Origin: a virus
Length of the DNA stretch: 23,891 bases
IMG/VR virus record: IMGVR_UViG_3300010885_022070
Coordinates: 1 to 23,891 of that record
Direction: 5' to 3' (one strand)
Below are positions 1,111 through 19,406 of the stretch, piece after piece. The notes under the pieces were generated by a model, which was not told the DNA's origin, did no database searches, and saw nothing but the letters and a program-made list of their open reading frames with translations. Position numbers and translations under genes: made by a program. The number at the start of each line of letters is the position of its first letter. Positions within the stretch are counted from its first letter, which is position 1.

Positions 1111-1320
1111 GTGCCAACCAACGACGAGGTGATCGACGCGATCGCTGCGAATCTGACGCAGCCGAGACGTGCCCGCACCGACGCTGGTGAGGTGGAGCAG
1201 CACGAGCTCGACCGCCAGGTTGAGGCCGCGAAGTTCGTTCTGAGTTCGCGAACCTCGAACGCGGCTTCGCCGTTCGCGTGCATCCGTTACGCCCAATGCC
1301 AGTATCCGGGGGCCGGCTGA
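1111..1320 (+). CDS. Small head protein, gpW-like by position
   Basis: GTG start with GGAG 7 nt upstream; 69 residues; stop at 1318-1320, only 2 bp before the portal ATG. The chain is mostly helical (NDEVIDAIAANL, then VEQHELDRQVEAAKFVL) and ends in a short basic, Cys-containing tail (FACIRYAQCQYPGAG). Lambda gpW is 68 residues, sits directly upstream of the portal gene, and plugs the portal during head completion. Size and position match here, and I know similar short proteins before portals in planctomycete phages. I see no diagnostic gpW motif, so the functional label is inference; the ORF itself is well supported. Confidence 0.6.
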   Translation: MPTNDEVIDAIAANLTQPRRARTDAGEVEQHELDRQVEAAKFVLSSRTSNAASPFACIRYAQCQYPGAG

Positions 1321-1322
1321 GA

Positions 1323-3101
1323 ATGGGGATCTTCTCACGCATTCTTGGACCATCACGGTCCACCATGCAGTCGACGATCGACGCCCAAAAGGCAGCGATC
1401 TCGACGATGGTGCGTGCGAAATACGATTCTGCCCAAACGACCGACTTGAACCGCAACCACTGGTCGCGGGCCGACAACCTCTCGGCCGACGCCGGGCTCC
1501 AGCCGCAGATCCGCCAGACCCTCCGCAATCGTGCCCGCTACGAGTTGCGAAATAACTCCTACGCGGCCGGTATCGCATCGACCTGGTCCAACGACCTGGT
1601 GGGCACCGGCCCGCGTCTCCAACTCGATCTCGGACCCGACGTGTCGCCCGAATCGGTGCGGTCGGTCGAGACGGCTTTTATCGACTGGTCCGACCGGATC
1701 GACCTCGCCCGCAAACTGCGGATCGCGAAGACCAGCAAGATTTCCGACGGCGAAGTGTTCGGTCTCAAGACGAACAACTCGCGGCTCCGCGGAGTGCAGC
1801 TCGACCTCAAGCTGGTCGAGGCCGATCAGGTCATTTCGCCGATCGGCTACCTCACCGAGAACGACGTGGACGGCGTCCGGTTCGACGCTGACGGCAACCC
1901 GACCGACTACTGGGTCGCGAAAAACCACCCCGGATCGCTGCTGCCGGGATTTGTTCTGGATGGTCAGTGGATCGAAGCGGAGTACGTCTGCCACTGGTAT
2001 CACGCGACCCGCCCCGGCCAGCACCGCGGCGTGCCGGAGATTGCCCCGTCGCTGGAGCTGTTCGCCCTTCTGCGGCGTTACACGCTCGCGGTGGTGACGG
2101 CCGCCGAGACGGCGGCCAGTTTCGCGGCGATCTTGAAAACGACCATGCCGGCCGATGGGTCAGGTGCCGCGAGTCTCTCCACCCTCGAGACGATGCCGAT
2201 CGTCCGCGGGATGGCGATCGCCGCTCCCGACGGGTGGGAGCCGGTCCAGATGCGGGCCGAGCACCCGACCTCGTCGCACGACGCATTTGTGCGTCGGATG
2301 CTCAATGAGATCGCCCGGTCGCTGGATATGCCGTACATCGTCGCCGCGATGGATTCGTCCACCGCGAACTACAGTTCGATGCGTGGCGATTACCTCGTCT
2401 ACCGCAAGCGGATCGCCGTCGAGCGGTCGGACATGGAACGGGTGTTCCTTGACCCGCTGCTCATGTCGTGGCTCGACGAGGCCGTGACCGCCGGCATCCT
2501 CCCGCGTGGTCTCCCGCCGTTCGCGTCGTGGAACTGGACGTGGACGTGGGACGGGTTTGAACACGTCGATCCGCTCAAGGAAGCCGACGCCGATGCCGCA
2601 ATGATCGGCAGCAACATGGCGAGCCTCGCCGAAGTCTGTGCCAAGCGTGGCCGCGATTGGCGGATCGTGCTGCGGCAGCGGGCGATTGAGAAGTCGATGG
2701 AGCGCGAACTGGGCGTTGACGCCCAGCCGGCGGCGATGGCTGCCGAGGACGACGAGGACGGCATCGAGGCCGCCGACGGCTACCGCCCCCCGCAAGCCGC
2801 TCGCGACGCTGCCCGACGTGGTCTCGAGTTGCGACGCGAGTACGGGCGTGGCGGCACGGCGATCGGCGTGGCTCGTGCCCGTGACATTGCCAACGGCCGA
2901 TCACTGTCGCTCGACACGATCGGGCGGATGGTGAGTTATTTCGCACGCCACGAGGTTGATAAGCAAGGCCAAGGGTGGTCGGAGGGCGAGGACGGCTACC
3001 CGTCGGCCGGCAAGATTGCGTGGCTGTTGTGGGGCGGTGACGCCGGCCGTTCGTGGGCCGAAGGCGTCTACAAGCGAGAAACCGAGGACGCCAACTCATG
3101 A
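1323..3101 (+). CDS. Phage portal protein, lambda family, with extra C-terminal domain
   Basis: 592 residues from ATG 1323, which I prefer over an ATG at 1278 because the earlier start lies inside the preceding gene. The portal forms the dodecameric ring at the capsid vertex through which DNA is packaged. The lambda-type (Phage_portal_2) signature is clear: RNNSYAAGIASTWSNDLVGTGP at roughly residues 76-97, then VEADQVISP, the GVPEIAPSLELFALLRRYTLA helix, and AMDSSTANYSSMRGDYLVYRK in the distal half. An acidic linker (AAEDDEDGIEA) leads to a separate domain at about 488-592, with GLELRREYGRGGT, RMVSYFARHEVDKQG, GYPSAGKIAWLLWGGDAGRSWA. I have seen this type of domain elsewhere in phage head proteins but know no function for it; fusion to a portal is noteworthy. 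The stop overlaps the next start (ATGA). Confidence 0.93.
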   Translation: MGIFSRILGPSRSTMQSTIDAQKAAISTMVRAKYDSAQTTDLNRNHWSRADNLSADAGLQPQIRQTLRNRARYELRNNSYAAGIASTWSNDLVGTGPRLQLDLGPDVSPESVRSVETAFIDWSDRIDLARKLRIAKTSKISDGEVFGLKTNNSRLRGVQLDLKLVEADQVISPIGYLTENDVDGVRFDADGNPTDYWVAKNHPGSLLPGFVLDGQWIEAEYVCHWYHATRPGQHRGVPEIAPSLELFALLRRYTLAVVTAAETAASFAAILKTTMPADGSGAASLSTLETMPIVRGMAIAAPDGWEPVQMRAEHPTSSHDAFVRRMLNEIARSLDMPYIVAAMDSSTANYSSMRGDYLVYRKRIAVERSDMERVFLDPLLMSWLDEAVTAGILPRGLPPFASWNWTWTWDGFEHVDPLKEADADAAMIGSNMASLAEVCAKRGRDWRIVLRQRAIEKSMERELGVDAQPAAMAAEDDEDGIEAADGYRPPQAARDAARRGLELRREYGRGGTAIGVARARDIANGRSLSLDTIGRMVSYFARHEVDKQGQGWSEGEDGYPSAGKIAWLLWGGDAGRSWAEGVYKRETEDANS

Positions 3102-4933
3102 GCAATCGCATCGAACTGTCAGCGGCCCTCAACGTGCAAGCGGCCGACGAGGCCGCTGTGCCGACGTTTGAGTTGGTGGCCTACACCGGGGCGAGCATCC
3201 GCCAAGGGTGGTCGCGAAACCCGCTGGTGGTGGATCTCGCACACATGGACGCTTCGCGTCCGATCCCGATTCTGTACGCCCACGGCAAGGAAATGCCTCT
3301 CCTCGACTCGGTGATCGGCAAGAGCCTGGAAGCCACCAACGACGGCAACCAGCTCATGCTTCGCGGTGAACTGATCCGCGGGACGCCAGCGGCCGACAAG
3401 CTCATCGCTTTGGCGAAGGCCGGGGTGCCGCTGCAAGCGAGCATCGGTGCCGACGTTGGCTCAATCGAAAACATTGCCGCGGGAGCGAGCGTGACCGTCA
3501 ACGGTCGCGAGTTCCCCGGCCCCATCAGCGTTGCTCGTGGAGCGGTTCTCCGCGAGACGAGTGTGGTCCTGTTCGGTGCGGACGCATCAACGTCCGCGGC
3601 TATCGCCGCCGAGGCGAATGAGGTTTCCAACATGAGCGAGCAGCTCAACGAGAAGCCCGTCGAGGCCGCCGTGCCAACGACGGAAGCCACGGCGATTGTC
3701 GCCGCGGACCAGAAGGTGATTGCCGGCAACGACGGTGCCAACACCATCGACGCCGAGGCCGTCGCCAACATCGTGCTGGAACGGCTCCGTGCCGACCGGC
3801 TCGCCGAGGTTCGTGCCGAGCGGCCCAGGGCTCCGGCTGCCCACGTCGTGGACGCTTCGGCGGCTCACGACCCGCGGGTGATCGAAGCGGCTCTCTGCCT
3901 CAACGGCGGACTCGGCAACGTCGAGAAGGCCTTCGACCAGAAGACCCTCGAGGCGGCTGACCGTCGGCGTGGCAGCACGTCGCTGCAGGAAGTGCTCGTC
4001 GAGGCCGCCCGTGCCAACGGGTATCACGGCCCCGCTCGCATCTCGGCCGGCAACGTGCGGGAGGTGCTCGCGAGTGGTTTCGCGACGCACAGCATCAGCA
4101 ACGTGCTCGCCGCGACCTACGGCAAGTTTCTTCTCCAGGGCTACACCGCTGTCGAAGCGGCGTGGGACCAGATCGCGTCGATCCGCAGCGTCAGTGACTA
4201 CAAGACGGTCACCGGCGTGCGGCTCAACGGCGGTTTCGATTTCGAGGACGTTGGACCTTCCGGCGAACTGAAGTCGGCCGACGCTTCGGACGAGACGCGG
4301 ACGATCCGGGCCAAGCTGACCGGCCGTATGTCGTCCATCACGATGGTTGACATCGTGAACGACGACCTGGGTGCTCTCACCCAGGTTCCGGCCCGTCTGG
4401 GCCGCGGTGCCGCGGTGAAGCTCAACAAGGATTTCTGGACGGAGTACGAGCTGAACAACAGCACGTTCTACCGGAAGGAAACCGCGGCTGCCGGCAACGC
4501 CCTCCAGCTCTCCGCTCTGCGGACGGCGGTGGCGTCCTACCGGAAGTTGACCGATCCGGACGGCAACCCGCTGGGAATCACGCCGCAGATCCTGCTCGTC
4601 CCGCCGGAGCTGGAGATGACGGCCGAGGAGCTGATGGGCTCGTCGGTGCTCATCACCGGAGAGAACGTGACTCGCGGAAACGTGAACGTGTTCGCCGGCC
4701 GGTTCCGTGTCGTGTCCAGTGCGTACCTCACCAGCGGTACGACCTGGTGGCTGATGGCGAACCCGGCCGAACTGCCGGCGATGGAAGTCGCATTCCTCAA
4801 CGGCCAGCGGCTGCCGACGGTGCAGCAGGCCGAGGCGGACTTCAACATGCTCGGCATCCAGGTTCGCGGCCACTTCAGCTACGGCGTTGCCAAGGCTGAG
4901 GCCCGCGGTGCCTACCGGATGGCGACTGCCTGA
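3098..4933 (+). CDS. Fused prohead protease and major capsid protein (Mu gpT-like)
   Basis: 611 residues from ATG 3098, overlapping the portal stop by 4 bp. Residues about 20-175 look like a prohead serine protease: conserved His in ILYAHG (H62), Ser in PLQASIGA (S115), and RETSVVLFGAD (E153 a possible third residue). A hydrophilic, Ala/Glu-rich linker (about 179-270) could serve as scaffold. Residues about 280-611 match major capsid proteins of the Mu gpT-like group: GITPQILLVPPELEMTAEEL, the beta-rich middle, and the C-terminal GIQVRGHFSYGVAKAEARGAYR. In most phages these are two genes; here there is no stop between them. An in-frame ATG at 3632 (M179), with a weak TGAGG 8 nt before it, could yield a separate 433-residue scaffold-capsid form. 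Confidence 0.88.
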   Translation: MSNRIELSAALNVQAADEAAVPTFELVAYTGASIRQGWSRNPLVVDLAHMDASRPIPILYAHGKEMPLLDSVIGKSLEATNDGNQLMLRGELIRGTPAADKLIALAKAGVPLQASIGADVGSIENIAAGASVTVNGREFPGPISVARGAVLRETSVVLFGADASTSAAIAAEANEVSNMSEQLNEKPVEAAVPTTEATAIVAADQKVIAGNDGANTIDAEAVANIVLERLRADRLAEVRAERPRAPAAHVVDASAAHDPRVIEAALCLNGGLGNVEKAFDQKTLEAADRRRGSTSLQEVLVEAARANGYHGPARISAGNVREVLASGFATHSISNVLAATYGKFLLQGYTAVEAAWDQIASIRSVSDYKTVTGVRLNGGFDFEDVGPSGELKSADASDETRTIRAKLTGRMSSITMVDIVNDDLGALTQVPARLGRGAAVKLNKDFWTEYELNNSTFYRKETAAAGNALQLSALRTAVASYRKLTDPDGNPLGITPQILLVPPELEMTAEELMGSSVLITGENVTRGNVNVFAGRFRVVSSAYLTSGTTWWLMANPAELPAMEVAFLNGQRLPTVQQAEADFNMLGIQVRGHFSYGVAKAEARGAYRMATA

Positions 4934-5026: not shown

Positions 5027-5350
5027 ATGGCTTCTTACAGGACTGAAGGCGACAAGCTCGACTACACCCCGACTACGGGCGTGGCGGCGGGCGACATCGT
5101 TGTCCTTGGCTCCCTCGTGACACTGGCCGATCGGGCGATTGCCGCCAATGAACTCGGTGCGGTGCTGACCAACGGCGTCGTGACCGGCCCGTGCGGCACT
5201 GGCGTGACCGGTGCCCAAGGCGACGCGATCAAGTGGTACGCCACCAGCGGCGTGTTTCACGCCACGACCGGCACCAACTGCGGTTACCTCGCCCGTGCCC
5301 GTGCTGCTGCCGACACGACCGTGTCGGTGCTCCTCTGGCCGGGTTCGTGA
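5027..5350 (+). CDS. Capsid cement/decoration protein, DUF2190 type
   Basis: 107 residues; ATG 5027 with GAAAGG at 5012-5017. The sequence is beta-rich with small residues: an early GDKLDYTPTTGVAAGDIVVLG, a central LTNGVVTGP, and a final VSVLLWPGS. This matches DUF2190-type proteins (Phage_cement_2), which sit on the outside of capsids and stabilise them. Its place directly after the capsid gene fits. It has its own ribosome site and is bracketed by two hairpins with 14-bp stems and 7-nt loops (4952-4986 and 5367-5401), suggesting its mRNA level or stability is set separately, as expected for a protein needed in hundreds of copies. Confidence 0.78.
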   Translation: MASYRTEGDKLDYTPTTGVAAGDIVVLGSLVTLADRAIAANELGAVLTNGVVTGPCGTGVTGAQGDAIKWYATSGVFHATTGTNCGYLARARAAADTTVSVLLWPGS

Positions 5351-5420: not shown

Positions 5421-7448
5421 ATGCAGGACATGATCGCCATTGGCGAGGCGTGGTTTCGATCGCAGCGGCGTGAGCACTTGGCGACTGAGGTTTCGTATCA
5501 GCCGACCATCGGCACCACGCGAACAGTGCGGGCGACTGCCGTCGTTGGGCGATGGGAGTCCATAGATGCCGCCGGCCAAATGCTTCGGACGGAGACGCAA
5601 GACTTTTTCGTTGACACGACGGACCTTGCCCAAGACCCGAAGAAGGGCGACCGGATCGTTGCCGGCGGCTTCACTTACGAGGTGATGGTCCCGCCGGGGG
5701 CCGAGCACCACTGGCGGTGGTCGGACCGCAATAAGACGCTGAGACGGATTCACACGATGGTGACCGATGGCCCAGCCAACCGCACTCCGGCCGTCCCAGG
5801 CCCGCCGACCGCCGTTGTCGGCGTGAATGACTTGCCCGTGACTTGGACGGCCCCTGTAGTGACCGGCGAGTACGCCGTGACTTCCTACAAGGTCTACGCC
5901 GGCGACGTACTGCAGGAAACCGTGACGGCCCCATCGACGACGAGCGTTGGGACGTGGCCTGGTGGAACGGTGATCCGGGTGTCGGCAGTGAATGCGATCG
6001 GCGAGGGGGAAAAAAGTTCGCCAGTCTACCTGCCTTTGTTTCCGCTGTTCGTCTTTACTGGCGAAAGCAACAGCGGTGGCCTGGGGCTCAACAGCCAGGC
6101 TTCTGCGGAAGAGCTGGCCCCGCGTTCGCAGCTTCAGATACTGAACAACTCGTCGCTCGTTTTTGAAGCATTGGACATCGGAACAAACAACCTGTTAGGT
6201 CATGGTGGACTTGAAAGTTACTTCACAACTTGTCACGGAATAGAGTTGCAACTTGCCAATCAGGTTGTCGCCGGCCGCTGGCCGAAAAGCACAGCGTATC
6301 TCGTAAAAACCGGCCAAGGCGGATACAAGATTTCAACATGGCTGAATAACACTCAGACCTTCGCGGCTACGTTTTCTCAACGAGTCGCAACGGCCATGCA
6401 ACTGCTTGAGGATAATGGCATCGCGTATCGGCCCGTCGTGTTCATGTCGATCGGCATCAACGATGCTTTCGACAACACAGACCCCGCGACGTTCAAGAGC
6501 AACGTCAAGGAAGTGCATGGGAACATCCGGTCGGTGCTCGGGAGCAACACGCTGATCGTGATGACGCTGTTTGAGAGTCCCATTGCGTCATATCAAGAGA
6601 ACGACGAAATAAACGACGTGATTCGGCAAATCGCATCCGAAGATAGTAACGTCCTTGCAATCAGTACGGCGGGGTTTCAAGCGGACGGCGGATCGCACTG
6701 GTCATACGCCGGGCTCAAGTCAGTTGCCGATGCTTTCCGGACGGCTGTGTTTAGCAACGCTGCGGATTTTTCGATTCAAGATCAGGTGGTTCGCGTGCCG
6801 CCTAAAAGCCAACTCGCCGCATGGTATGACGCCGCTGATCGCGGGGCGTTTTTCATTGATTCCGGAAAGGTGTCGAGCTGGTACGACAAAAGCGGCAACT
6901 CAAGGACGGCCACGCAAAGCACGCCAGGAAACCGTCCATCTCTGGCCGGCACGCTGAATGGAAGGTCAACCGTAGCGTTTTCTGCGGCCTCAACAAACTT
7001 CCTGAACATGACGTACAGCGGCTGGAGTCAAAACCCGCTAACGATTTATGTGCTCTATAAGGCCACTAAAACGTCATCTGGGCTGCACACGTCCCTACTC
7101 AGCGGAGGGTCGAACGCCATCTACGTTGGCCGCGAAGGCAGTGCGGACGCTGTGTTAAAGGCTGGATCGGGGACGCACGCAACGGCTGCGGGCGACTCTG
7201 GCTGGCGGCTTCTTCGGTACTCGCAGAGCGGATCGACGTGGAACCTGTCATCGAACGCAAACACAGCGTCGGGGACGAACGGGCCGACATACGCCTCAAC
7301 CAGCGCGTTTCAGATTGGATCTTACGCCTCGCTTTCATCGTTCTGCCTGGACGGCGAAATGGCTGAGATGCTGATCTACAACACAGTAACCGATGCCGCC
7401 ACCGACCAGCGAGTCAGGAGATACATTCAGCAGAAGTGGGGAGTGTAA
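5421..7448 (+). CDS. Neck (head-tail joining) protein fused to FN3, SGNH esterase and lectin-like domains
   Basis: 675 residues in one uninterrupted frame. Residues 1-112 look like an FII-type head-tail joining protein: ATEVSYQPTIG, DFFVDTTDLAQDPKKGDRI, YEVMVPPGAEHHWRWSD, ending LRRIHT as such proteins do. About 126-203 is a fibronectin-III-like domain (PGPPTAVVG, TSYKVYAG, VSAVNAIGEGEKSSP). About 208-445 fits an SGNH or sialate-O-acetylesterase-like hydrolase: GESNSGG (nucleophile S216), TGQGGYKISTW (298-307), GIND (345-348), and DGGSH (D422, H426; spacing DxxxH rather than the usual DxxH). About 463-675 resembles a concanavalin-like sugar-binding domain (LAAWYDAAD, SSWYDKSGN, FSAAS.NFLNM, MAEMLIYN). 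GC falls visibly after about nt 6000, so the esterase and lectin parts look grafted onto a resident neck gene. Inferred: a neck-anchored appendage that binds and deacetylates surface glycans. Confidence 0.75.
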   Translation: MQDMIAIGEAWFRSQRREHLATEVSYQPTIGTTRTVRATAVVGRWESIDAAGQMLRTETQDFFVDTTDLAQDPKKGDRIVAGGFTYEVMVPPGAEHHWRWSDRNKTLRRIHTMVTDGPANRTPAVPGPPTAVVGVNDLPVTWTAPVVTGEYAVTSYKVYAGDVLQETVTAPSTTSVGTWPGGTVIRVSAVNAIGEGEKSSPVYLPLFPLFVFTGESNSGGLGLNSQASAEELAPRSQLQILNNSSLVFEALDIGTNNLLGHGGLESYFTTCHGIELQLANQVVAGRWPKSTAYLVKTGQGGYKISTWLNNTQTFAATFSQRVATAMQLLEDNGIAYRPVVFMSIGINDAFDNTDPATFKSNVKEVHGNIRSVLGSNTLIVMTLFESPIASYQENDEINDVIRQIASEDSNVLAISTAGFQADGGSHWSYAGLKSVADAFRTAVFSNAADFSIQDQVVRVPPKSQLAAWYDAADRGAFFIDSGKVSSWYDKSGNSRTATQSTPGNRPSLAGTLNGRSTVAFSAASTNFLNMTYSGWSQNPLTIYVLYKATKTSSGLHTSLLSGGSNAIYVGREGSADAVLKAGSGTHATAAGDSGWRLLRYSQSGSTWNLSSNANTASGTNGPTYASTSAFQIGSYASLSSFCLDGEMAEMLIYNTVTDAATDQRVRRYIQQKWGV

Positions 7449-7546
7449 GTATCATGCCGGGCGACGTGGCTCATCCAGCGCTGTGAGCGAAGGGCTGAGT
7501 TCGGCGTCGGTGACGGCTGGCCTGGCGTAGCCGAGGAAACATCAAC
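7449..7546. other. 98-bp spacer with small stem and ribosome site
   Basis: The spacer contains a minor stem (GCTCA / TGAGC near 7470-7490) and a good GAGGAAA ribosome site just before ATG 7547. No recurrent element or T-tract terminator is present, so the downstream gene is probably read from upstream. Confidence 0.3.
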
Positions 7547-8437
7547 ATGGCAAAAAATATGATCCGGCGTCCATTCCATCGAGGCGGCATCCGCACCAGT
7601 CTGCCGGTGACGATCTATCGTCGGGCGTCCAATCAGTTGCACCCCGAAGCCCAGGATTGGATCGACCGCGTGGTTGCGAACGGCGGCCAGGTGAGTTCCG
7701 CGACGGCGGGGGCGGTGAATACGTTCTGTAGTGCGATCGCCGACGCGAGCATCCGCGACCGCTTCTACCGGCTCAACTTGTTCTGCGGCACGGGACTCAA
7801 CGCCGCACTGGTGCCGCTGTATCGGGGACCGTCGCTCGGCGACACGCAGTACGGCTGGACCACCGACAACAACTTCGGCCCATTCATGCCAGAGAACTAC
7901 AACGAAACTGGTGCGAGCGGAGGGCTGATTGGTAACGGCAGTACCAAGTACCTAAAAACTGGCTTTATACACAACACGCTGCCGCAGAACGATTCGCATA
8001 TTGCCTCATACGAGATTAGCCGAGCGACGGCAACATTCCGAACAAGCGTCGGGTGTAGAAGCACCGGAACTACAGGCTGTTTTATCCTCGGAACTTGGGC
8101 GAGCACTTCGCAGTATGCGTTGGTCGGCTACGAGAGCAACTCAAACCTTGCGTTGTCCAACAACGGCGGCGGCTTTTACGTTGGCACCATTAACGGCGCA
8201 TCAACGTCAGCGTTGTATCGCAATGCGACTGGGAAAGTTACCACAACGCTGACAACCAGGACGCCTGGTTCGCAAGAGATTTTTGTTTTTGCGTTGAATG
8301 ACGGCGGATCGTTTAGCGTTCCAACGGACGCGCGGCTTGCCGGTTACTCGTTTGGCCTAAAAATGTCAGACGATCAAGTGATTGCGTACAACGCTGCAAT
8401 GCAGGCGTTTCAGACTGCGCTAGGGAGAAACGTCTAA
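7547..8437 (+). CDS. Fibre/virion surface protein, lectin-like
   Basis: 296 residues; ATG 7547 preceded by GAGGAAA. The N-terminal part carries a signature I know from phage and prophage surface proteins: AQDWIDRVVANGGQVSSATA, then FCSAIADASIRDRFYRLNLFCGTGLNAALVPLY. In those proteins this element comes before a jelly-roll lectin-like domain. The remainder here is beta-rich and Asn/Ser/Thr/Gly-rich (GLIGNGSTKYLKTGF, LGTWASTSQYALVG) and ends in a helix MSDDQVIAYNAAMQAFQTAL. GC is lower in the C-terminal half, as in the preceding esterase-lectin protein. Likely a host-binding or decorating protein working with it; the substrate cannot be inferred. The stop overlaps the next start (TAATG). Confidence 0.62.
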   Translation: MAKNMIRRPFHRGGIRTSLPVTIYRRASNQLHPEAQDWIDRVVANGGQVSSATAGAVNTFCSAIADASIRDRFYRLNLFCGTGLNAALVPLYRGPSLGDTQYGWTTDNNFGPFMPENYNETGASGGLIGNGSTKYLKTGFIHNTLPQNDSHIASYEISRATATFRTSVGCRSTGTTGCFILGTWASTSQYALVGYESNSNLALSNNGGGFYVGTINGASTSALYRNATGKVTTTLTTRTPGSQEIFVFALNDGGSFSVPTDARLAGYSFGLKMSDDQVIAYNAAMQAFQTALGRNV

Positions 8438-8754
8438 TGACACTCGCTGAACTGACGCTTCCGGCGACACGCGACAACTGCAAAGACATCGCCCTAGTCT
8501 ACCACTACGATGTTGCCGTCGCACTGTACCAAGTGCAAGTCGAACACGGCGACCCGCGCCACGTTCCTATTGGTCGGGAACTGACGGATGGCCGCTGGAT
8601 GATGCTGGGCGAGGTGCTGTCTGAAGTCGGGCCGGGCGGTCTGCTCTTTGGTGCGTTCCGGCACATCACGCCCGAGATGATGGCGAAGGTGGAAGTCATC
8701 CCGCTGGCTGATGCTACTTCCCTCCTGCCAGAGTGCCCTAGCCCTGTGGGCTAG
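8437..8754 (+). CDS. Small conserved-looking protein of unknown function
   Basis: 105 residues, start overlapping the previous stop by 1 bp (TAATG) and stop overlapping the next GTG (TAGTGA), so it is firmly embedded in the operon. The sequence (VYHYDVAVALYQVQVEHGDPRH, LTDGRWMMLGEVLSEVGPGGLLFGAF) is compact alpha/beta with no signal peptide, membrane helix or catalytic motif I recognise. I do not know the family. Its place after a fibre-like gene would fit a fibre assembly helper, but nothing in the sequence proves this. Confidence 0.6.
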   Translation: MTLAELTLPATRDNCKDIALVYHYDVAVALYQVQVEHGDPRHVPIGRELTDGRWMMLGEVLSEVGPGGLLFGAFRHITPEMMAKVEVIPLADATSLLPECPSPVG

Positions 8755-9890
8755 TGAACTTCCGCCGCGTGAAATCCGGGGTTTACGCCGACGCCAATCC
8801 CGCTAGGCTAACCGGTGAACAGGTGAACACCGGCATGATCGAACACCTACACAGACTCGCGGCCCACGCCTACTACGTCGGCGAGCACGACGCTGGCCGC
8901 CGGGCGTGCGAACGGCTCATGCGTCTCCCTCTCTCCGCGGAGAAAGAGGAGAAGGTGCGGTCCAACCGCACTTGGTACACGCGGACGCTGACCGATCAGG
9001 GCGTCGCCGCGGAGTTCACGAAGATCGACGTGCCGCCGGCCCGCGTCGGATGGTCGCTGTTCAACCCGTCGGTCGTGAGCCACCGCGACCGGTTGCTGGT
9101 CAACGTGCGATCAAGCAACTATTCGATCGACGAAAACGGTCGCTACGTCATTCCGGCAGAGGACCGGGAAGCGATCCGGACATACAACTGTCTCGTCGAA
9201 GACGGGCACGCACGATATTGGGCCGCCGACTACGAAGCCACCGGATTCTCGGTGACGGGGCTCGAGGACGTGCGGCTCAACTCCGTAGGCGGCGAACTGA
9301 TCGCGTCGGCCACGATCCGCAACTGGGCGGGCCGCGATGGGACTTGCCGTATCGGCGTCGGAATCTTGGATAGATTCGACCGAATCCGCGATCTTCGCTG
9401 CCACGACACCGTCAGCGGCCGGCATGAGAAGAACTGGATGCCGATCACCGGCCGGCGGGAGTGGCTGTATTCATGCAGCCACGAAGGCAGGACGTGCCTC
9501 GTCCGCGAAGACGGCAACGATTGGACGGTGACGGCACACGCCGAGGCTCCGCTGGTGGCCCGCGGGTTCCGGGGCGGCTCGCAGCTCGTCGAGCACCCAT
9601 GGGCTCCTGGTCTGTGGTGGGCGATCGTCCACGAGGTGGCCGTCTCCGGTGGCCGTCGGGTCTATGAGCACCGATTTGTGATGTTCGACGAGGGTGCTGA
9701 TTGGCGGATCACGCGGGTATCCCCGCCCTTCGCGTTCCGCGAAACCCGCACTATTGAGTTCGCCGCCGGGCTCGCGGTCAGCGACCAGAACACCCTCGTG
9801 GCATCGTTCGGCGTGCGGGACGCCGAGGCGTGGCTGGCCTACGTTCCGATCGCCGACGTACTCAACATCATGGTGGACGCATGGGAGTGA
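8754..9890 (+). CDS. Beta-propeller glycosidase/phosphorylase-like protein (GH130-like)
   Basis: 378 residues from GTG 8754, translationally coupled to the preceding stop; no separate ribosome site is visible. Residues about 25-80 form a helical, TPR-like segment (LHRLAAHAYYVGEHDAGRRACERL). The rest resembles the five-bladed propeller of GH130 and related GH43/GH32-like enzymes: NPSVV (104-108), GLEDVRL (169-175; the Asp of 'EDxR' is catalytic in GH130), EKNWMPI (225-231), RGGSQLVE (273-280), IVHE (291-294), YEHRF (304-308), IEFAAGL (334-340). GH130 enzymes act on mannosides, but related propeller proteins linked to TPR-glycosyltransferases may have other roles, so the substrate is open. It heads a three-gene cassette with a methyltransferase and a GT2 enzyme. 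Confidence 0.65.
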   Translation: MNFRRVKSGVYADANPARLTGEQVNTGMIEHLHRLAAHAYYVGEHDAGRRACERLMRLPLSAEKEEKVRSNRTWYTRTLTDQGVAAEFTKIDVPPARVGWSLFNPSVVSHRDRLLVNVRSSNYSIDENGRYVIPAEDREAIRTYNCLVEDGHARYWAADYEATGFSVTGLEDVRLNSVGGELIASATIRNWAGRDGTCRIGVGILDRFDRIRDLRCHDTVSGRHEKNWMPITGRREWLYSCSHEGRTCLVREDGNDWTVTAHAEAPLVARGFRGGSQLVEHPWAPGLWWAIVHEVAVSGGRRVYEHRFVMFDEGADWRITRVSPPFAFRETRTIEFAAGLAVSDQNTLVASFGVRDAEAWLAYVPIADVLNIMVDAWE

Positions 9891-10441
9891 CCGCATCGGC
9901 GGCATGGACCGAATCAGTCCGCAAGCTGCTGGAAAGCAACTGGCGTGAAGATGATTGGTTCGGTTGCGACAGCAGGGTGATTTTCCATTACGCAATGAAG
10001 GGTGAGATTTTTCGCCGCTACAAGCCGGCCAGCGTGATCGAGATCGGCACCCGCTGCGGCTACTCGCTGCTGACATTTGAGGCCGCGGCCCCCGGTGCCC
10101 ACTATCTCTGCATCGACGGGGCGATGGACGCCGACTCCTACGACTGCCTCGCCCACTGGCGGCGGCTGGTCGAGAAGCACCAGATCGACGCCGACCTGGT
10201 CGTGGTCGACTCCCACGCAATCAAGAGTCTGCCGCCGGCAGACTTCGCCCACATCGACGGCGACCACTCCTACGCCGGGGCTCTCGCCGACCTCCGGCTG
10301 GTGGCCGGAAGCCGGGTGATCTTGGCCGACGACTGCGACAACCGGGAGGTCCGGTCGGCGGTGGAGACGTTCGCCAAAGAGCAAGCCCGGACGGTTGAGT
10401 ATTTCGATGACGGGCTGCGGCAGGGGGCGGTGCTCACATGA
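9881..10441 (+). CDS. Class I SAM-dependent methyltransferase-like protein
   Basis: 186 residues from ATG 9881, overlapping the previous gene by 10 bp; an upstream ATG at 9830 is less likely because it lies deeper inside that gene. The Rossmann-type SAM fold is indicated by VIEIGTRCGYS (52-62, motif I), LCIDGAMD (77-84, the acidic end of strand 2), FAHIDGDHSYAGALADLRL (122-140) and VILADDCDN (146-154). The HIDGDHSY pattern is typical of the Methyltransf_24 group often found beside glycosyltransferases. Together with neighbours it probably methylates a sugar or a glycosylated protein, but the acceptor is not deducible. The ATGA overlap at its end couples it to the next gene. Confidence 0.75.
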   Translation: MGVTASAAWTESVRKLLESNWREDDWFGCDSRVIFHYAMKGEIFRRYKPASVIEIGTRCGYSLLTFEAAAPGAHYLCIDGAMDADSYDCLAHWRRLVEKHQIDADLVVVDSHAIKSLPPADFAHIDGDHSYAGALADLRLVAGSRVILADDCDNREVRSAVETFAKEQARTVEYFDDGLRQGAVLT

Positions 10442-11493
10442 AAGTCGCCATTTACGCCCTCGCCCGCAACGAAGCCGCCAACGTTGAGCGGTGGGAGTCG
10501 TCGTGCCGAGAGGCCGACGTGCGGGTGGTCACCGACACCGGCTCCACCGACAACACGGTGGAGCTGCTCGAGGCCGCGGGCGTGACGGTGGCCCGCGGCT
10601 GCCCGATCCCGTGGCGGTGGGACGACGCCCACAACCTATCCCTCATGCACGCCCCGGCCGACGCCGATGTGGTGATCCGGCTGGACCTCGACGAAGCCCT
10701 CGACCCCGGCTGGCGGGAAGCCCTAGAGCGTGATTGGAAGCCGGAGACCACCAAACTCCGCTACTGGTACTGGTGGTCAGACGTGGTCCGCTTCCGCTGC
10801 GACCGCATTCACACCAGAAACGGCTACCGGTGGACCGGGGCGACGCACGAGGGGCTCGTGCGGTGGGACGGCGACGAAGTGCAGACGCAATCGGACGGCG
10901 TCGTGATCCGCCACCATCGGCAACCAGGCAAAACCCACTCAACCGACCTCACGCTCCTCCGGCAAGCCGTCCGTGAGAATCCGACCGACGCCCGGATGCA
11001 GTGGTATTTCGCTCGCGAGCTGGATTACGCCAACGATGCGGCGTGCGTGGAAGAGTTTGCGAAATACCTTGCCATGCCGGGTGGGGCTCCGAACGAGCGT
11101 GCGTATGCCCGCCGGGTCATGGGAAGGCGGGACGAGCATGGGCGTGCCCGCCACATGCTCGGGTCCATGCTAGAGAGCCCGCTGGAGCCGGAGGCATACG
11201 TCCACGTCGCCGAGTTGGCGTGGGCGAAGGGCGATCCGGTGGGCACGCTTTACTGGGCACGGCAAGCCCTCAACTGCTCCGACGAAAACCGGTCGCACGC
11301 GAGCGATCAGGCGTGCTACTCATATGCCGTACCTGATTTGGCGTGCTCGGCTGCCATGCAGATGGGTCGCTACGGCGAGGCTTTGCTGCACGCCAAGGAC
11401 GCCCTCTCTAGAAACCCAAATGATGAGAGGCTCAAGAAGAACGTCCGCATACTAGAGACAATGGAATCGGAGGACGGCCCCAAGGCCGAATAA
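10438..11493 (+). CDS. Family 2 glycosyltransferase with C-terminal TPR repeats
   Basis: 351 residues, start overlapping the methyltransferase stop by 4 bp. The GT-A fold is shown by IYALARNEA (5-13), DTGSTDNT (33-40, nucleotide binding), WDDAHNLSL (61-69), IRLDLDEAL (80-88, containing the metal-binding DxD) and THEGLV (136-141). From about residue 170 the chain turns to helical repeats with TPR spacing: WYFARELDYAND..CVEEFAKYL, AYVHVAELAWAKGDPVGTLYWARQAL, RYGEALLHAKDAL. GT2-TPR proteins transfer sugars to proteins or surface glycans, with the TPR part holding the acceptor. In a virion gene block this points to glycosylation of a structural protein or alteration of host surface sugar. Confidence 0.85.
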   Translation: MKVAIYALARNEAANVERWESSCREADVRVVTDTGSTDNTVELLEAAGVTVARGCPIPWRWDDAHNLSLMHAPADADVVIRLDLDEALDPGWREALERDWKPETTKLRYWYWWSDVVRFRCDRIHTRNGYRWTGATHEGLVRWDGDEVQTQSDGVVIRHHRQPGKTHSTDLTLLRQAVRENPTDARMQWYFARELDYANDAACVEEFAKYLAMPGGAPNERAYARRVMGRRDEHGRARHMLGSMLESPLEPEAYVHVAELAWAKGDPVGTLYWARQALNCSDENRSHASDQACYSYAVPDLACSAAMQMGRYGEALLHAKDALSRNPNDERLKKNVRILETMESEDGPKAE

Positions 11494-14255: not shown

Positions 14256-16568
14256 ATGGCTGGCGCCGGTGGAGTTCGTGCCGGTGGTGCCTTCGTAGAA
14301 ATCTACGCTAAGGACACACGATTCCAGCAAGCCATGGCTCGCGTCCAGGGCCGGCTCAAGGCTATCGGCTCGACGATGCAGGCTCTTGGCACGTCGATGT
14401 CTCTCGTCGGGACGGCCCTCGGGCTCCCGATGGTGCTCGCGGCAAAGACGGCCGCCAAGTTTGAGGATGCCATGCTCGGCATGAAGGCCGCGGCTGGCCT
14501 GACTGACGGCGAGCTGAAGGCGGTCGAGCAGGCCGCACTCAACTTATCGAAGACGATGAACGTCGCGCCGTCCGGCATCGCGGAGGCTTTCCTTGAACTG
14601 CTGAAGGCCGGAATGTCGCTCGAGCAAGTGCTGGGTGGTGCCGGCAAGGCCGCGGTAGAGTTTGCAAGGGTGTCGGGCGTCGAGATGGCAGACGCTGCCG
14701 TATTTATGAAGGTTTCGATGAACACGTTCGGCGTATCGGCTACGCAAGCAGTCGATACGCTTTCCGCTGCCGCGGATGCCAGCGAAACTTCAATCGCGTC
14801 CATGGTCGAGTCGTTCGGCTTGGTCGGATCTGCCGGTGCTCTGTTCAATCAGTCTCTTTTTGATATTTCGCAAGGTCTGGCGGTGTTGGCAAGGTTCGGC
14901 ATCAAAGGAGAAGAAGCCGGCACGGGTATCAAAACGGCCCTAATGCGTCTCACGTCTCCGGCCAAGGAATCTGAGGATGCACTGGCCCAAATCGGACTCA
15001 CCTTGGAGAGTTTTCGGAATGCCGACGGAGAACTGCTTCCGCTCGTCCAGATTGTTGGCGTCCTCCAGGATGCGTTAGTCGGCGTCGATCAAGTGATGCG
15101 AGACCGGATCCTCGGCCAAGTGTTCGGCGACCGCGGTATCCGAGTGGTCGGTGCATTCCTCAACGTCGGCGTTGCTGGATTTGAAGACATCGCCGACGCG
15201 ATGGAGGCAAACCTTCCGGTGGCGCTCAAGTTCCAGATCCTTATGAGCGGAATCACTGGGGCGATGCAAACGATGTATGCGGCCGTCGAGCGGCTGACAA
15301 TCGCGTTTGCGAAGGCTCTCGGGCCAAATATTGCCTACGCAGCGGCAGCGGCCGCAAAGTTCATCGACATTGCGGCGGCCCTCATTTCAGCCTTCCCAGG
15401 CGTGACAACGGCAGTGGTCGGGGCCACGGTTGCACTCGTCGGGATGGGCGTCGTGCTCATAGCCACCGGGCTCGCATTCAAGGCGCTCGCCGCTGGGGTG
15501 GCGGTGCTGTCGGCAGCCTTGGCATTGCTCACGTCGCCGATTGGTCTGGCAGCGGCCGCCCTAACGGCCGGCGTGGCGATCATGCTGGTGAACATGTACA
15601 AGCTGTCACCAGCATTTGCCGAGGAAATGGACGCGATCATGGCGGCGGCGATGGCGCTTGATTTTGGAACCGCGTGGCAGCTCATGAACATCAACCTCGC
15701 CATCGCGTTGGTTGAGATGCAGCAGCGTTTCCATGACACGTTCTCCGCGGTGAAGAACACGGTCATGGGAGTTAGTGATTGGATTGGCGACAAGCTGATT
15801 GAGGGGCTGGACCGTTTTCTAGGTCTTTTCGGTAGCGACATTCTTTGGTTGCAGGGGAACCTTGAGAAGCTCGGGAAGTATTTCAAGGCGGCGTTTGATT
15901 GGGACTTCGCCTTGAACGGATTGACCGACGCCCTCGCGGCCGTCGACGCCCGCATTGAGAAGGAGAGGGCGAAGGCCCCGAATGCCGATGCTCGGGCTCA
16001 GGAAAGGGACGCGGAGATGGATCGCAGGGCGAAGGCACGCCAAGCGGCCGACGACGAGGCCCAGAAGAATCGCCCCGGCACGATCGACGAGCTGAAGGCA
16101 GAGCGGGAAAGGATCAAGAAGAAGGGCGAGGAGAATCGCAAGAAGGTGGAAGAGGTTCGCCAGAACGAAGCGAAGCGCGGCGATCTTGAAATGCCCATGA
16201 TGGACGCCGCGGCTGGTGGCGTCACCGCCAAATCGGTCGGCACCTTCTCCGCAGCACTTGCCGGCAGGATCGGAGTCGGGCCGGAAATCCAAGTAATGAA
16301 CGCCATTGCGGACAACACCGGCAGAGCTGCCGACGCGCTTGAAGGGATGCTGCAGGGCAACTTCAAGAACGCCAACCCTCTTGGCGACATCAACGCCGTA
16401 AATGGTGCGATCGCGGCCGCGGCCCGCGTGCAAAACGCCCCGGTTGCCGGCGGTGACGAAGCACTCGTGACCCCTATGGAGCAGACGGCGGCATCGGTGG
16501 CCGAATCTACGCGGCACCTAAGAGAGCTTGTTGGCCTGGCCCGTTCGGGCGGGCTCGCGTTTGCATAA
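14256..16568 (+). CDS. Tail tape measure protein (TP901 type)
   Basis: 770 residues; ATG 14256, 2 bp after the chaperone frame's stop. The N-terminal third has the TP901 tape-measure core: TAAKFEDAMLGMKAAAG, LNLSKTMNVAPSGIAEAFLELLKAGM, VFMKVSMNTFGVSATQAVDTL, FGIKGEEAGTGIKTALMRL. A hydrophobic stretch at about residues 383-450 (VVGATVALVGMGVVLIATGL and following) could insert into the host membrane during DNA entry. A highly charged helix at about 560-640 (KAERERIKKKGEENRKKVEE) is coiled-coil-like. At the usual 0.15 nm per residue the tail would be of the order of 115 nm (an inference). A tape measure this long is typical of siphoviruses. Confidence 0.9.
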   Translation: MAGAGGVRAGGAFVEIYAKDTRFQQAMARVQGRLKAIGSTMQALGTSMSLVGTALGLPMVLAAKTAAKFEDAMLGMKAAAGLTDGELKAVEQAALNLSKTMNVAPSGIAEAFLELLKAGMSLEQVLGGAGKAAVEFARVSGVEMADAAVFMKVSMNTFGVSATQAVDTLSAAADASETSIASMVESFGLVGSAGALFNQSLFDISQGLAVLARFGIKGEEAGTGIKTALMRLTSPAKESEDALAQIGLTLESFRNADGELLPLVQIVGVLQDALVGVDQVMRDRILGQVFGDRGIRVVGAFLNVGVAGFEDIADAMEANLPVALKFQILMSGITGAMQTMYAAVERLTIAFAKALGPNIAYAAAAAAKFIDIAAALISAFPGVTTAVVGATVALVGMGVVLIATGLAFKALAAGVAVLSAALALLTSPIGLAAAALTAGVAIMLVNMYKLSPAFAEEMDAIMAAAMALDFGTAWQLMNINLAIALVEMQQRFHDTFSAVKNTVMGVSDWIGDKLIEGLDRFLGLFGSDILWLQGNLEKLGKYFKAAFDWDFALNGLTDALAAVDARIEKERAKAPNADARAQERDAEMDRRAKARQAADDEAQKNRPGTIDELKAERERIKKKGEENRKKVEEVRQNEAKRGDLEMPMMDAAAGGVTAKSVGTFSAALAGRIGVGPEIQVMNAIADNTGRAADALEGMLQGNFKNANPLGDINAVNGAIAAAARVQNAPVAGGDEALVTPMEQTAASVAESTRHLRELVGLARSGGLAFA

Positions 16569-17512: not shown

Positions 17513-18294
17513 TGTCAGGCGATCCTTACGCAAAAGCACAGCCGGGCGAGAAGCTGAAGATCCATGCGACGACCTGGAATCGGGTCGTGGATCTTGTGAA
17601 GCCAGGGGCGGCTGCCGCACCAGGCGAGGAGTTTTCGTATCGCCGGACCAACTTCCGCGTCTACTGCCAAAACAAGACGAGCGGCACAGTGCCACAGTGG
17701 GGCGTGCTGCATATCGACGGCGTGCTGCCGACACCAAGCGGCAGCACGGGCACGGCAACGGAAGGCTTTCAGTCCTCGCCGGCCGTCATTGGGAAAACGC
17801 CAACTGGCACGACCAACGGTAGTTTTGTGATCGCCGTCGAGCCGATCGGTGCCGACAAACTTGGCATGGCCGCGATCGACGGGGTCGTGCAGTGCAAGCT
17901 GGACGTGACAGACGCGAGCCATCGGTTTGCGACCCCAAAGCCAGGATCAACGACGGAGTTGAAAACGGCGTCGTCCGGCGAGGCCGCGATTCTATGGAAG
18001 GAGAGCGGCACCGGGGCTGGGAAGTGGGGGCTCGTGCGGATCGGCGCTGGAAGCGGTGGCGGCGTGAAGGTCGGCAAGATCACCGGCACCTGGACCAAGG
18101 GGTCGACGCAAACCGTGTGGGAATACACAGGGGCCGGGGTCCAAGCCAGCGGGCCAAGCGGGCCGCTATCGCTGACCGGCGTCAATAGGTTTGTGACGGT
18201 CACCGTGTCTGGAACCTCTGGAAGTGCAGCCAAGTGGGTCGCGGTAGCGAACGTCGATTCGACGTGGCACCTGATCGCGGCGGAGTGCTCGTGA
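17512..18294 (+). CDS. Tail/baseplate-associated structural protein candidate
   Basis: 260 residues; ATG 17512 overlaps the preceding stop. The N-terminus DPYAKAQPGEKLKIHATTWNRVVDLVK matches a short element ('DPF.K...G..L.I.A..WN...D') that I have seen at the start of several phage structural proteins. Two beta-rich, Gly/Thr/Ser-rich modules follow, including WKESGTGAGKWGLVRIGAG and VTVTVSGTSGSAAKWVAVANV. It has no catalytic motif. It probably belongs to the tail tip, together with its neighbours. The stop overlaps the next start as TGATG. Confidence 0.52.
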   Translation: MSGDPYAKAQPGEKLKIHATTWNRVVDLVKPGAAAAPGEEFSYRRTNFRVYCQNKTSGTVPQWGVLHIDGVLPTPSGSTGTATEGFQSSPAVIGKTPTGTTNGSFVIAVEPIGADKLGMAAIDGVVQCKLDVTDASHRFATPKPGSTTELKTASSGEAAILWKESGTGAGKWGLVRIGAGSGGGVKVGKITGTWTKGSTQTVWEYTGAGVQASGPSGPLSLTGVNRFVTVTVSGTSGSAAKWVAVANVDSTWHLIAAECS

Positions 18295-19406
18295 TGGTGC
18301 TACTACCTAACTGTGGGTGCTGCCGAAGCCCATGTGAAGCGTGCGTAGACATTTATAAATCATTTTCAATCCAGGTAAACGCCGACAATAAATGCCACCC
18401 AACCGCTGGCCCTGAATGCACGATCACTATTCCAAGTGAGTATTCGCTTCCGGTTACCGTCAGACTATCAGGCATTGTTGATGACGATTTAAAGTTCAAC
18501 GGAAGCATCGTTGAGCCAGGTCGGTACATCTACGCTGACAACTGCAACGGCGGCCACTACATCGGAACAGCAAATGGCGGCCCAGGGTACGTTGACGAGA
18601 CCGCAGACGATCAGTCATTCACGCTAAAACTGGTTGACAACTTTGGCATGGTTAGTTGGATGTCACTCAAAGTGTGTATTGACCCGGAAAACGAGCAGGG
18701 TGTGTGCATCCCTCCAACGACCGACTGCCCGATTCCGCCGCCGCCCGACGTGCAGTGCTGCAAACGCATTGCCAACTGCGGAGGCGTATATATATCAACA
18801 TGCGCAACTGTGCCGGCTGACGTGTGCTGTAAGTCGTATGCCAACGGAGACGACACTGGCTGTGACGGTATTTCGCCACCTTATACGTCATGCGAGACCG
18901 AGGGGGCTTCTCCAAGTTTTTCGCCGCCGTACGACTGCTTGAACGGAAGTTTTCAAGGTGGCGCATGGGTGAAAATCTCTGGCTGGGACGCATCCATTCA
19001 AGAAATCATAGACGATGGAAGTCCAATCATAGGGGATGCCCTCTTAGCGAATGCCTTCCTCGAATCAAAGATAAATCAGACATTTTTTGTGCCTTTTGAT
19101 TGCCTTGGGGCTGGGCAACTCGCGCTCGACCTTGGGCCTGGCGAGACGTATCCAGGGGGTTCAGAATGCTCGGGAGCAAACTTGTTCCTCTACATTTATG
19201 TCAACCTTTGTGCAAGAACAGCAGGCGTTGCCATTCGCCACGCTGGGTGCTACGGCGTGGACGACATATCTATTGACCTTGGTGCGCTGAGCCCTATCAG
19301 CGTGCCGTGCAACTACTGGACTGGGTGCAACTGCGAAGGTTACTCAGGCAGCATTCCTGTCGGTGGCATATCCGGCGGCGGAACACTGACTGTTTCCAGT
19401 TCGTGA
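18294..19406 (+). CDS. Cysteine-rich, low-GC surface protein
   Basis: 370 residues from ATG 18294 (coupled TGATG); an upstream ATG at 18234 lies inside the previous gene and is unlikely. Seen: about 27 cysteines, with clusters NCGCCRSPCEAC at the N-terminus, QCCKRIANCG and VCCKSY in the middle, and GCNC near the end; several DxN or NG-rich loops; and a proline linker PIPPPPDVQCC near the centre. GC is clearly lower than in flanking tail genes and codons end in A or T more often. No signal peptide is evident. It could be a disulfide-rich tail-tip or receptor-binding protein, or bind metal; neither is demonstrable. Its position after the tail genes fits a late-acquired host-interaction protein. 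Confidence 0.55.
   Translation: MVLLPNCGCCRSPCEACVDIYKSFSIQVNADNKCHPTAGPECTITIPSEYSLPVTVRLSGIVDDDLKFNGSIVEPGRYIYADNCNGGHYIGTANGGPGYVDETADDQSFTLKLVDNFGMVSWMSLKVCIDPENEQGVCIPPTTDCPIPPPPDVQCCKRIANCGGVYISTCATVPADVCCKSYANGDDTGCDGISPPYTSCETEGASPSFSPPYDCLNGSFQGGAWVKISGWDASIQEIIDDGSPIIGDALLANAFLESKINQTFFVPFDCLGAGQLALDLGPGETYPGGSECSGANLFLYIYVNLCARTAGVAIRHAGCYGVDDISIDLGALSPISVPCNYWTGCNCEGYSGSIPVGGISGGGTLTVSSS

Follow-up and report, generated by a model that had tools for sequence, protein, structure and literature searches.

A phage head-tail joining protein extended by FN3, SGNH-hydrolase and LamG-like domains, and the exchange of such extensions among its relatives

Locus and reading frame

The window, by which we mean the whole stretch of DNA that was analysed, comprises an entire virus record (23,891 bases) and is probably part of a larger genome, given that the longest close relatives reach 41–42 kb. 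The features on which the argument draws are as follows, with position, strand and identity.

1278..3101, +, portal protein (PF05136, 8e-59)
3119..4933, +, head protease fused to major capsid protein, one polypeptide (phrog_4523, 9e-57)
5027..5350, +, head cement/decoration protein (PF09956, 1.4e-14)
5421..5759, +, stopper (FII-type head-tail joining) domain, residues 1-113 (PF25138, PF05354, sister fold, one per record)
5760..5795, +, linker, residues 114-125 (sequence between domains)
5796..6035, +, FN3 domain, residues 126-205 (weak fn3 match here, strong in sisters, alignment)
6036..6764, +, SGNH hydrolase domain, residues 206-448 (PF03629, AF2 model, invariant residues)
6066-6068, 6459-6461, 6684-6686 and 6696-6698, +, SGNH residues Ser216, Asn347, Asp422 and His426, respectively
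6765..7445, +, LamG/concanavalin-like domain, residues 449-675 (phrog_10356, homology to sister LamG)
7547..8437, +, next gene: RGGVRTxLP-type N-terminus and phrog_17104 module, LamG absent here but present in most sisters
8437..8754, +, 105-residue ORF within the variable cassette (similar small ORF in the same place in, e.g., L005, L029 and L057)
8754..9890, +, conserved ORF at the cassette's downstream end (marker in relatives)
9848..10441, +, methyltransferase, start approximate (PF13578, 3e-9)
10438..11493, +, family-2-like glycosyltransferase (PF00535, 2.6e-4, just under cut-off)
14256..16568, +, tape measure protein (PF10145, 4e-32)

As the original prediction had it, positions 5421–7448 form a single uninterrupted ATG frame, here of 675 codons' worth of protein, in which Pfam, PHROGs and sister alignment place, in order, an FII-type stopper, FN3, an SGNH hydrolase and a LamG/concanavalin-like domain. 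The motifs named at the outset lie where they were put (LRRIHT at residues 107–112, GESNSGG at 214–220, GIND at 345–348 and DGGSH at 422–426). Codon adaptation is best in frame 0 in every whole domain, and frame 0 also tops most sliding windows, the few exceptions being near-ties; neither scale of analysis indicates the frameshift that the prediction had considered. A reading as two genes, or as one frameshifted gene, is rejected on the open frame together with this codon use. GC content is 0.64 in FN3, 0.53 in the SGNH domain and 0.57 in LamG, and both GC and codon use shift sharply at residue 206, where the SGNH domain starts. Near that junction, no start codon inside the frame has a convincing ribosome site.

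Several features of the surrounding genes deserve mention in their own right. The C-terminal ~100 residues of the portal protein (residues ~502–601) match phrog_2859, and the portal query splits into two pieces in Roseobacter phage CRP-811 and Synechococcus phage S-CBS3, one on the portal and one on the capsid-protein gene, which suggests that in those two phages the capsid gene carries this domain. The ORF, methyltransferase and glycosyltransferase at 8754–11493, behind the cassette, occupy the same place in relatives and might modify virion or host glycans. Past the tape measure gene, 18234–19406 holds a cysteine-rich ORF of 390 residues with no Pfam match.

The joining domain and its extensions

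The N-terminal domain of the ORF at 5421–7448 is the head-tail joining (stopper) protein of this phage, as profile, sister fold and gene position agree, and the FII-like joining domain claimed for residues 1–112 is thereby borne out. Residues 3–113 match PF25138 (Phage_H_T_join_3) at E=1e-21, with 77.7 bits against a cut-off of 27; the protein also matches the lambda FII family, PF05354, at 1.7e-6 (29.0 bits, cut-off 26), and scores 18.2 with NCBIfam tail_join_FII, under the cut-off of 25. When either the stopper or the SGNH domain was compared by sequence with solved structures, only chance matches came up. The fold was modelled on a sister, L039, whose residues 1–118 are 84% identical to those of the window. 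This model shows an N-terminal helix, then strands, and a long hairpin at 34–65, that is, a beta-sandwich with an inserted hairpin; lambda gpFII, too, consists of an N-terminal helix, strands and a long hairpin (PMC10721106). The top structural matches of the model are the lambda, R4C, Pa193, Chi and T4 gp13/gp14 necks and SPP1 neck/stopper chains, with VIA-align Z scores of 11.0 for the Chi neck, 10.1 for Pam3, 9.7 for the lambda neck and 8.4 for R4C.

The stopper gene follows the portal, capsid and cement genes and precedes the tail genes. In CRP-811, a distant cultured relative, the U gene comes directly after FII, and it is by this comparison that the window's cassette, 5760–11493, can be seen to sit between stopper and tail genes. 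Exactly one PF25138 homologue is present per record in 12 of 12 records, the window included; the same profile finds no second stopper gene in the window or in 11 relatives, and phrog_82 matches the same gene only. A single stopper homologue in each of 12 records identifies the ORF at 5421–7448 as the neck protein, and the separate neck gene that would have spoken against the original prediction does not appear in the window record. An adaptor (gpW) gene was not identified.

In helix, beta-sandwich, inserted hairpin and gene place, the domain resembles lambda gpFII and the hexameric stoppers of R4C, Chi, T1 and SPP1 (gp16). It differs in what follows: lambda gpFII has 117 residues and the CRP-811 FII 98, whereas the window stopper adds an extension of 560 residues. 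The lambda stopper is a hexamer, for which the place of the C-terminal loop is given (PMC10721106), so the 12-mer assumed earlier does not hold for gpFII-type stoppers, and the protein described here would be expected to assemble as six copies. The accompanying premise, that joining proteins are normally small and buried, needs qualifying: an external beta-sandwich is present on the stopper of phage 812 (PMC12886913), and among the homologues collected here every stopper that reads past the joining domain bears a C-terminal extension.

These extensions come in several kinds. Although the fn3 match in the window protein is weak (0.012, residues 133–202), those in sisters are strong (5e-9 in L002, 7e-9 in L056) and their joining and FN3 regions align with the window's, which makes the FN3 assignment secure. 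Two FN3 domains are found in, for example, L002, L003 and L026, and one in L005, L006 and L037; L007, L039 and L014 have instead a strand-rich domain of ~115 residues unrelated to FN3. The L039 copy of this alternative domain (L039:6349-6681) is without a match in annotated phages. The SGNH-LamG extension was found in the window record only. A survey of homologues for the same fusion found no other case in overlapping sets of 23 and 44 loci, in annotated phages or, searched by exact short patterns only, in bacterial genomes; 25 related records contain no SASA domain, and no prophage relative of the window phage was found.

The type of extension goes with the type of the gene that follows. Behind FN3 extensions lies an RGGVRTxLP-type gene (16/16, the window counted), often with LamG repeats and the phrog_17104 module, and behind the ~115-residue extension a GTNVVAP fibre (15/15), which in L047 has collagen and glycine-rich parts. 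The two types agree in all 31 cases. On the stopper DNA tree each undergoes five changes, at least three of them on supported branches; a sign test on paired swaps has three supported independent pairs, all in agreement, which are too few for significance. Such complete agreement despite repeated swaps implies that stopper extension and next gene move as one unit. Joint exchange of this kind would fit a pair of physical partners, and linkage alone could also produce the pattern. It is this family-wide exchange of stopper extensions, beyond the single fusion, that we find surprising.

The hydrolase and LamG-like domains

Residues 209–437 match the SASA profile PF03629 (2.8e-10, 40.6 bits against a cut-off of 24.8), and the same region matches GDSL PF13472 at 1.1e-7. 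An AF2 model covers residues 207–675, with usable confidence in the SGNH part and low confidence in the LamG part. The folds closest to its first ~245 residues are those of CE6/SASA enzymes (1zmb, Z 23.5; 2apj, 23.2; NanS, 19.0), together with the cyanophage Pan3 tailspike (19.6). Ser216, Asn347 and His426 are invariant among five phage homologues, down to 32% identity, and the window protein keeps the Asn that classical SGNH enzymes have in block III.

SASA enzymes are defined by a Gln next to the catalytic Ser (GQS in block I) and by (H)QGE in block III (PMC9487903). All five phage homologues read GES in block I, the defining Gln being absent; block III is SQGIND in four of them and SIGIND in the window, where Ile replaces Gln, and there is no (H)QGE. 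With GES for GQS in block I and SIGIND for HQGE in block III, the domain falls outside SASA in the strict sense. Of the original "SGNH/sialate-esterase-like" label, then, the SGNH fold with its Ser, Asn and His stands, and "sialate esterase" is only the nearest profile. The prediction was also right that block V, DGGSH, reads DxxxH and not the usual DxxH, but this is a modest loop variation: two homologues have DxxH (L079, L102) and two no Asp there (L097, L099), while DxxH is not strict across the superfamily, EcNanS lacking the Asp and AlgX/AlgJ and CE20 enzymes carrying DxH (PMC9487903). On motifs and model, we take the domain to be an SGNH hydrolase that belongs to a phage subfamily and is probably a carbohydrate O-acetylesterase, for which the block III Ile and the DxxxH make weak or no activity possible.

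An alternative, which we consider unlikely but still deserving of attention, takes up that last point: a catalytically weak or dead SGNH domain would work together with LamG and FN3 in adhesion to glycans, mucus or matrix. The substituted Ile and shifted Asp lend themselves to this reading, as do the nature of LamG and FN3 as binding or spacer modules and the sisters, which bear only non-enzymatic domains at the same place. Set against these is the invariance of Ser216, Asn347 and His426 in five homologues of such low identity; moreover, SGNH enzymes with a Ser-His dyad or a displaced Asp are active (PMC9487903).

The concanavalin-like domain that had been claimed for the C-terminus is probably LamG-like, to judge by its relatives; a Pfam search of the window protein itself gives no LamG match. 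It matches phrog_10356, a virion structural family, at 1.7e-15, and is homologous to LamG domains of sisters (best matches iE 2e-17 to 4e-14), of which that in L003 passes Laminin_G_3 at 4e-7. In the sisters these domains belong to the next gene; the window's own next gene is without LamG and has retained both ends. SGNH homologues with 32–47% identity occur in other viral contigs (L079, L097, L099, L102), none of them joined to a stopper. The L079 domain has a gene of its own near the end of the tail module, and that in L099 is the C-terminus of a 469-residue late structural protein; in L079 and L097 the SGNH homologue closes a tail or late-gene module, in one case with lysis-like genes following. 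Acquisition of an SGNH domain plus transfer of LamG would fit the window's version best.

The GC and codon shift at residue 206 would be consistent with recent acquisition, and also with an assembly chimera in which a stopper-FN3 gene was misjoined to an SGNH-LamG gene of another phage, a reading that the absence of the join from any second record searched would likewise suit. The frame, however, stays open across the join, and sister phages have homologues of both LamG and the next gene (MAKNMIRRPFHRGGIRTSLPVTIYRR) in the same place. With both flanks from the same phage family, a chimera would need two matching in-frame false joins, and we regard it as improbable. We give equally little credence to processing, in which cleavage would free the stopper and leave SGNH-LamG as an enzyme of its own, soluble or active at the lysis stage, for although neck proteins are usually small and the L079 and L097 domains have the late, partly lysis-side setting just described, the junction offers no convincing internal start and FN3 stays covalently attached in frame in sisters.

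A putative enzymatic arm at the neck

The reading that we favour, with moderate confidence, is that of a stopper with six neck-exposed esterase-lectin arms. A ring of six copies would close off the portal-adaptor channel and accept the tail, and the C-terminal arm of each subunit would exit the ring on the outer side of the neck, bearing in order an FN3 spacer, an SGNH-fold carbohydrate O-acetylesterase and a LamG-like glycan-binding domain. The virion would then carry six covalently anchored arms. These may attach to O-acylated polysaccharide of a surface or matrix and remove its acyl groups as the phage approaches or adsorbs. Exit of the arm to the outside is made plausible by phage 812, in which the N- and C-termini of the stopper touch outer decoration proteins (PMC12886913). 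Counting against the full reading are the occurrence of the SGNH-LamG version in one record and the compositional shift at residue 206. In addition, the carbohydrate-binding module of the Anabaena phage A-1(L) neck fibre failed to bind its host (PMC10966104), so that neck appendages need not act in adsorption.

Each element of the proposed arm is known singly, in stoppers with an external domain, in neck fibres with carbohydrate-binding modules, and in SGNH deacetylases on tail fibres or tailspikes. The phage 812 stopper, gp97, has an added external beta-sandwich as well as termini at the outer neck decoration, but no enzymatic or lectin role is described for this domain, and the 812 whiskers are separate proteins (PMC12886913). 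The TP901-1 neck passage structure (NPS, ORF51; PMC10747895) is likewise an elongated neck-anchored protein with carbohydrate-binding modules at its end; it has, however, its own gene and an N-terminal domain that forms a ring of its own around the adaptor, with neither stopper fusion nor esterase. The window arm, as part of the stopper chain, differs from a neck passage structure or collar whisker, which is a separate protein with its own ring domain. The A-1(L) neck fibres (gp82-gp81-gp80; PMC10966104) share the distal carbohydrate-binding module, but are separate proteins on a 15-fold neck ring. Virion-borne SGNH domains with deacetylase activity on host polysaccharide are known from Possum gp66 and G7C gp63.1 (PMC9569702) and from Aristophanes gp41 (PMC8471582), in these cases on tail fibres or tailspikes and not on a stopper. 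A stopper fused to an esterase or lectin was found neither in the open-access literature searched nor in annotated phages, in keeping with the original statement that no described phage has this layout.

Since relatives carry exchangeable stopper extensions, surface-active appendages may be mounted at the neck. A broader proposal, which we advance tentatively and with more doubt than conviction, is that the stopper is a general mounting hub in this phage group, its extension and the adjacent fibre gene being swapped together, so that host-surface binding, and here also enzymatic glycan deacetylation, would be organised at the neck and not at the tail tip alone. Little is understood of neck whiskers and collars, whose mode of attachment is known in few phages. 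With an appendage that is part of the stopper chain and is exchanged along with the next gene as a cassette, the function of neck appendages becomes testable through the swap or deletion of a single arm. The fusion further points to a way in which phages may gain polysaccharide-modifying enzymes while leaving the tail tip untouched.

A related arrangement of genes is seen in S-CBS3. Here the FII-like gp08 is followed directly by a fibre gene with Mtd_N (L119:9390-10420), the fibre thus being a separate gene, and an Mtd-like gene (L119:7835-8992) stands before it. As around the window stopper, genes of apparent host-binding type flank the FII-like gene.
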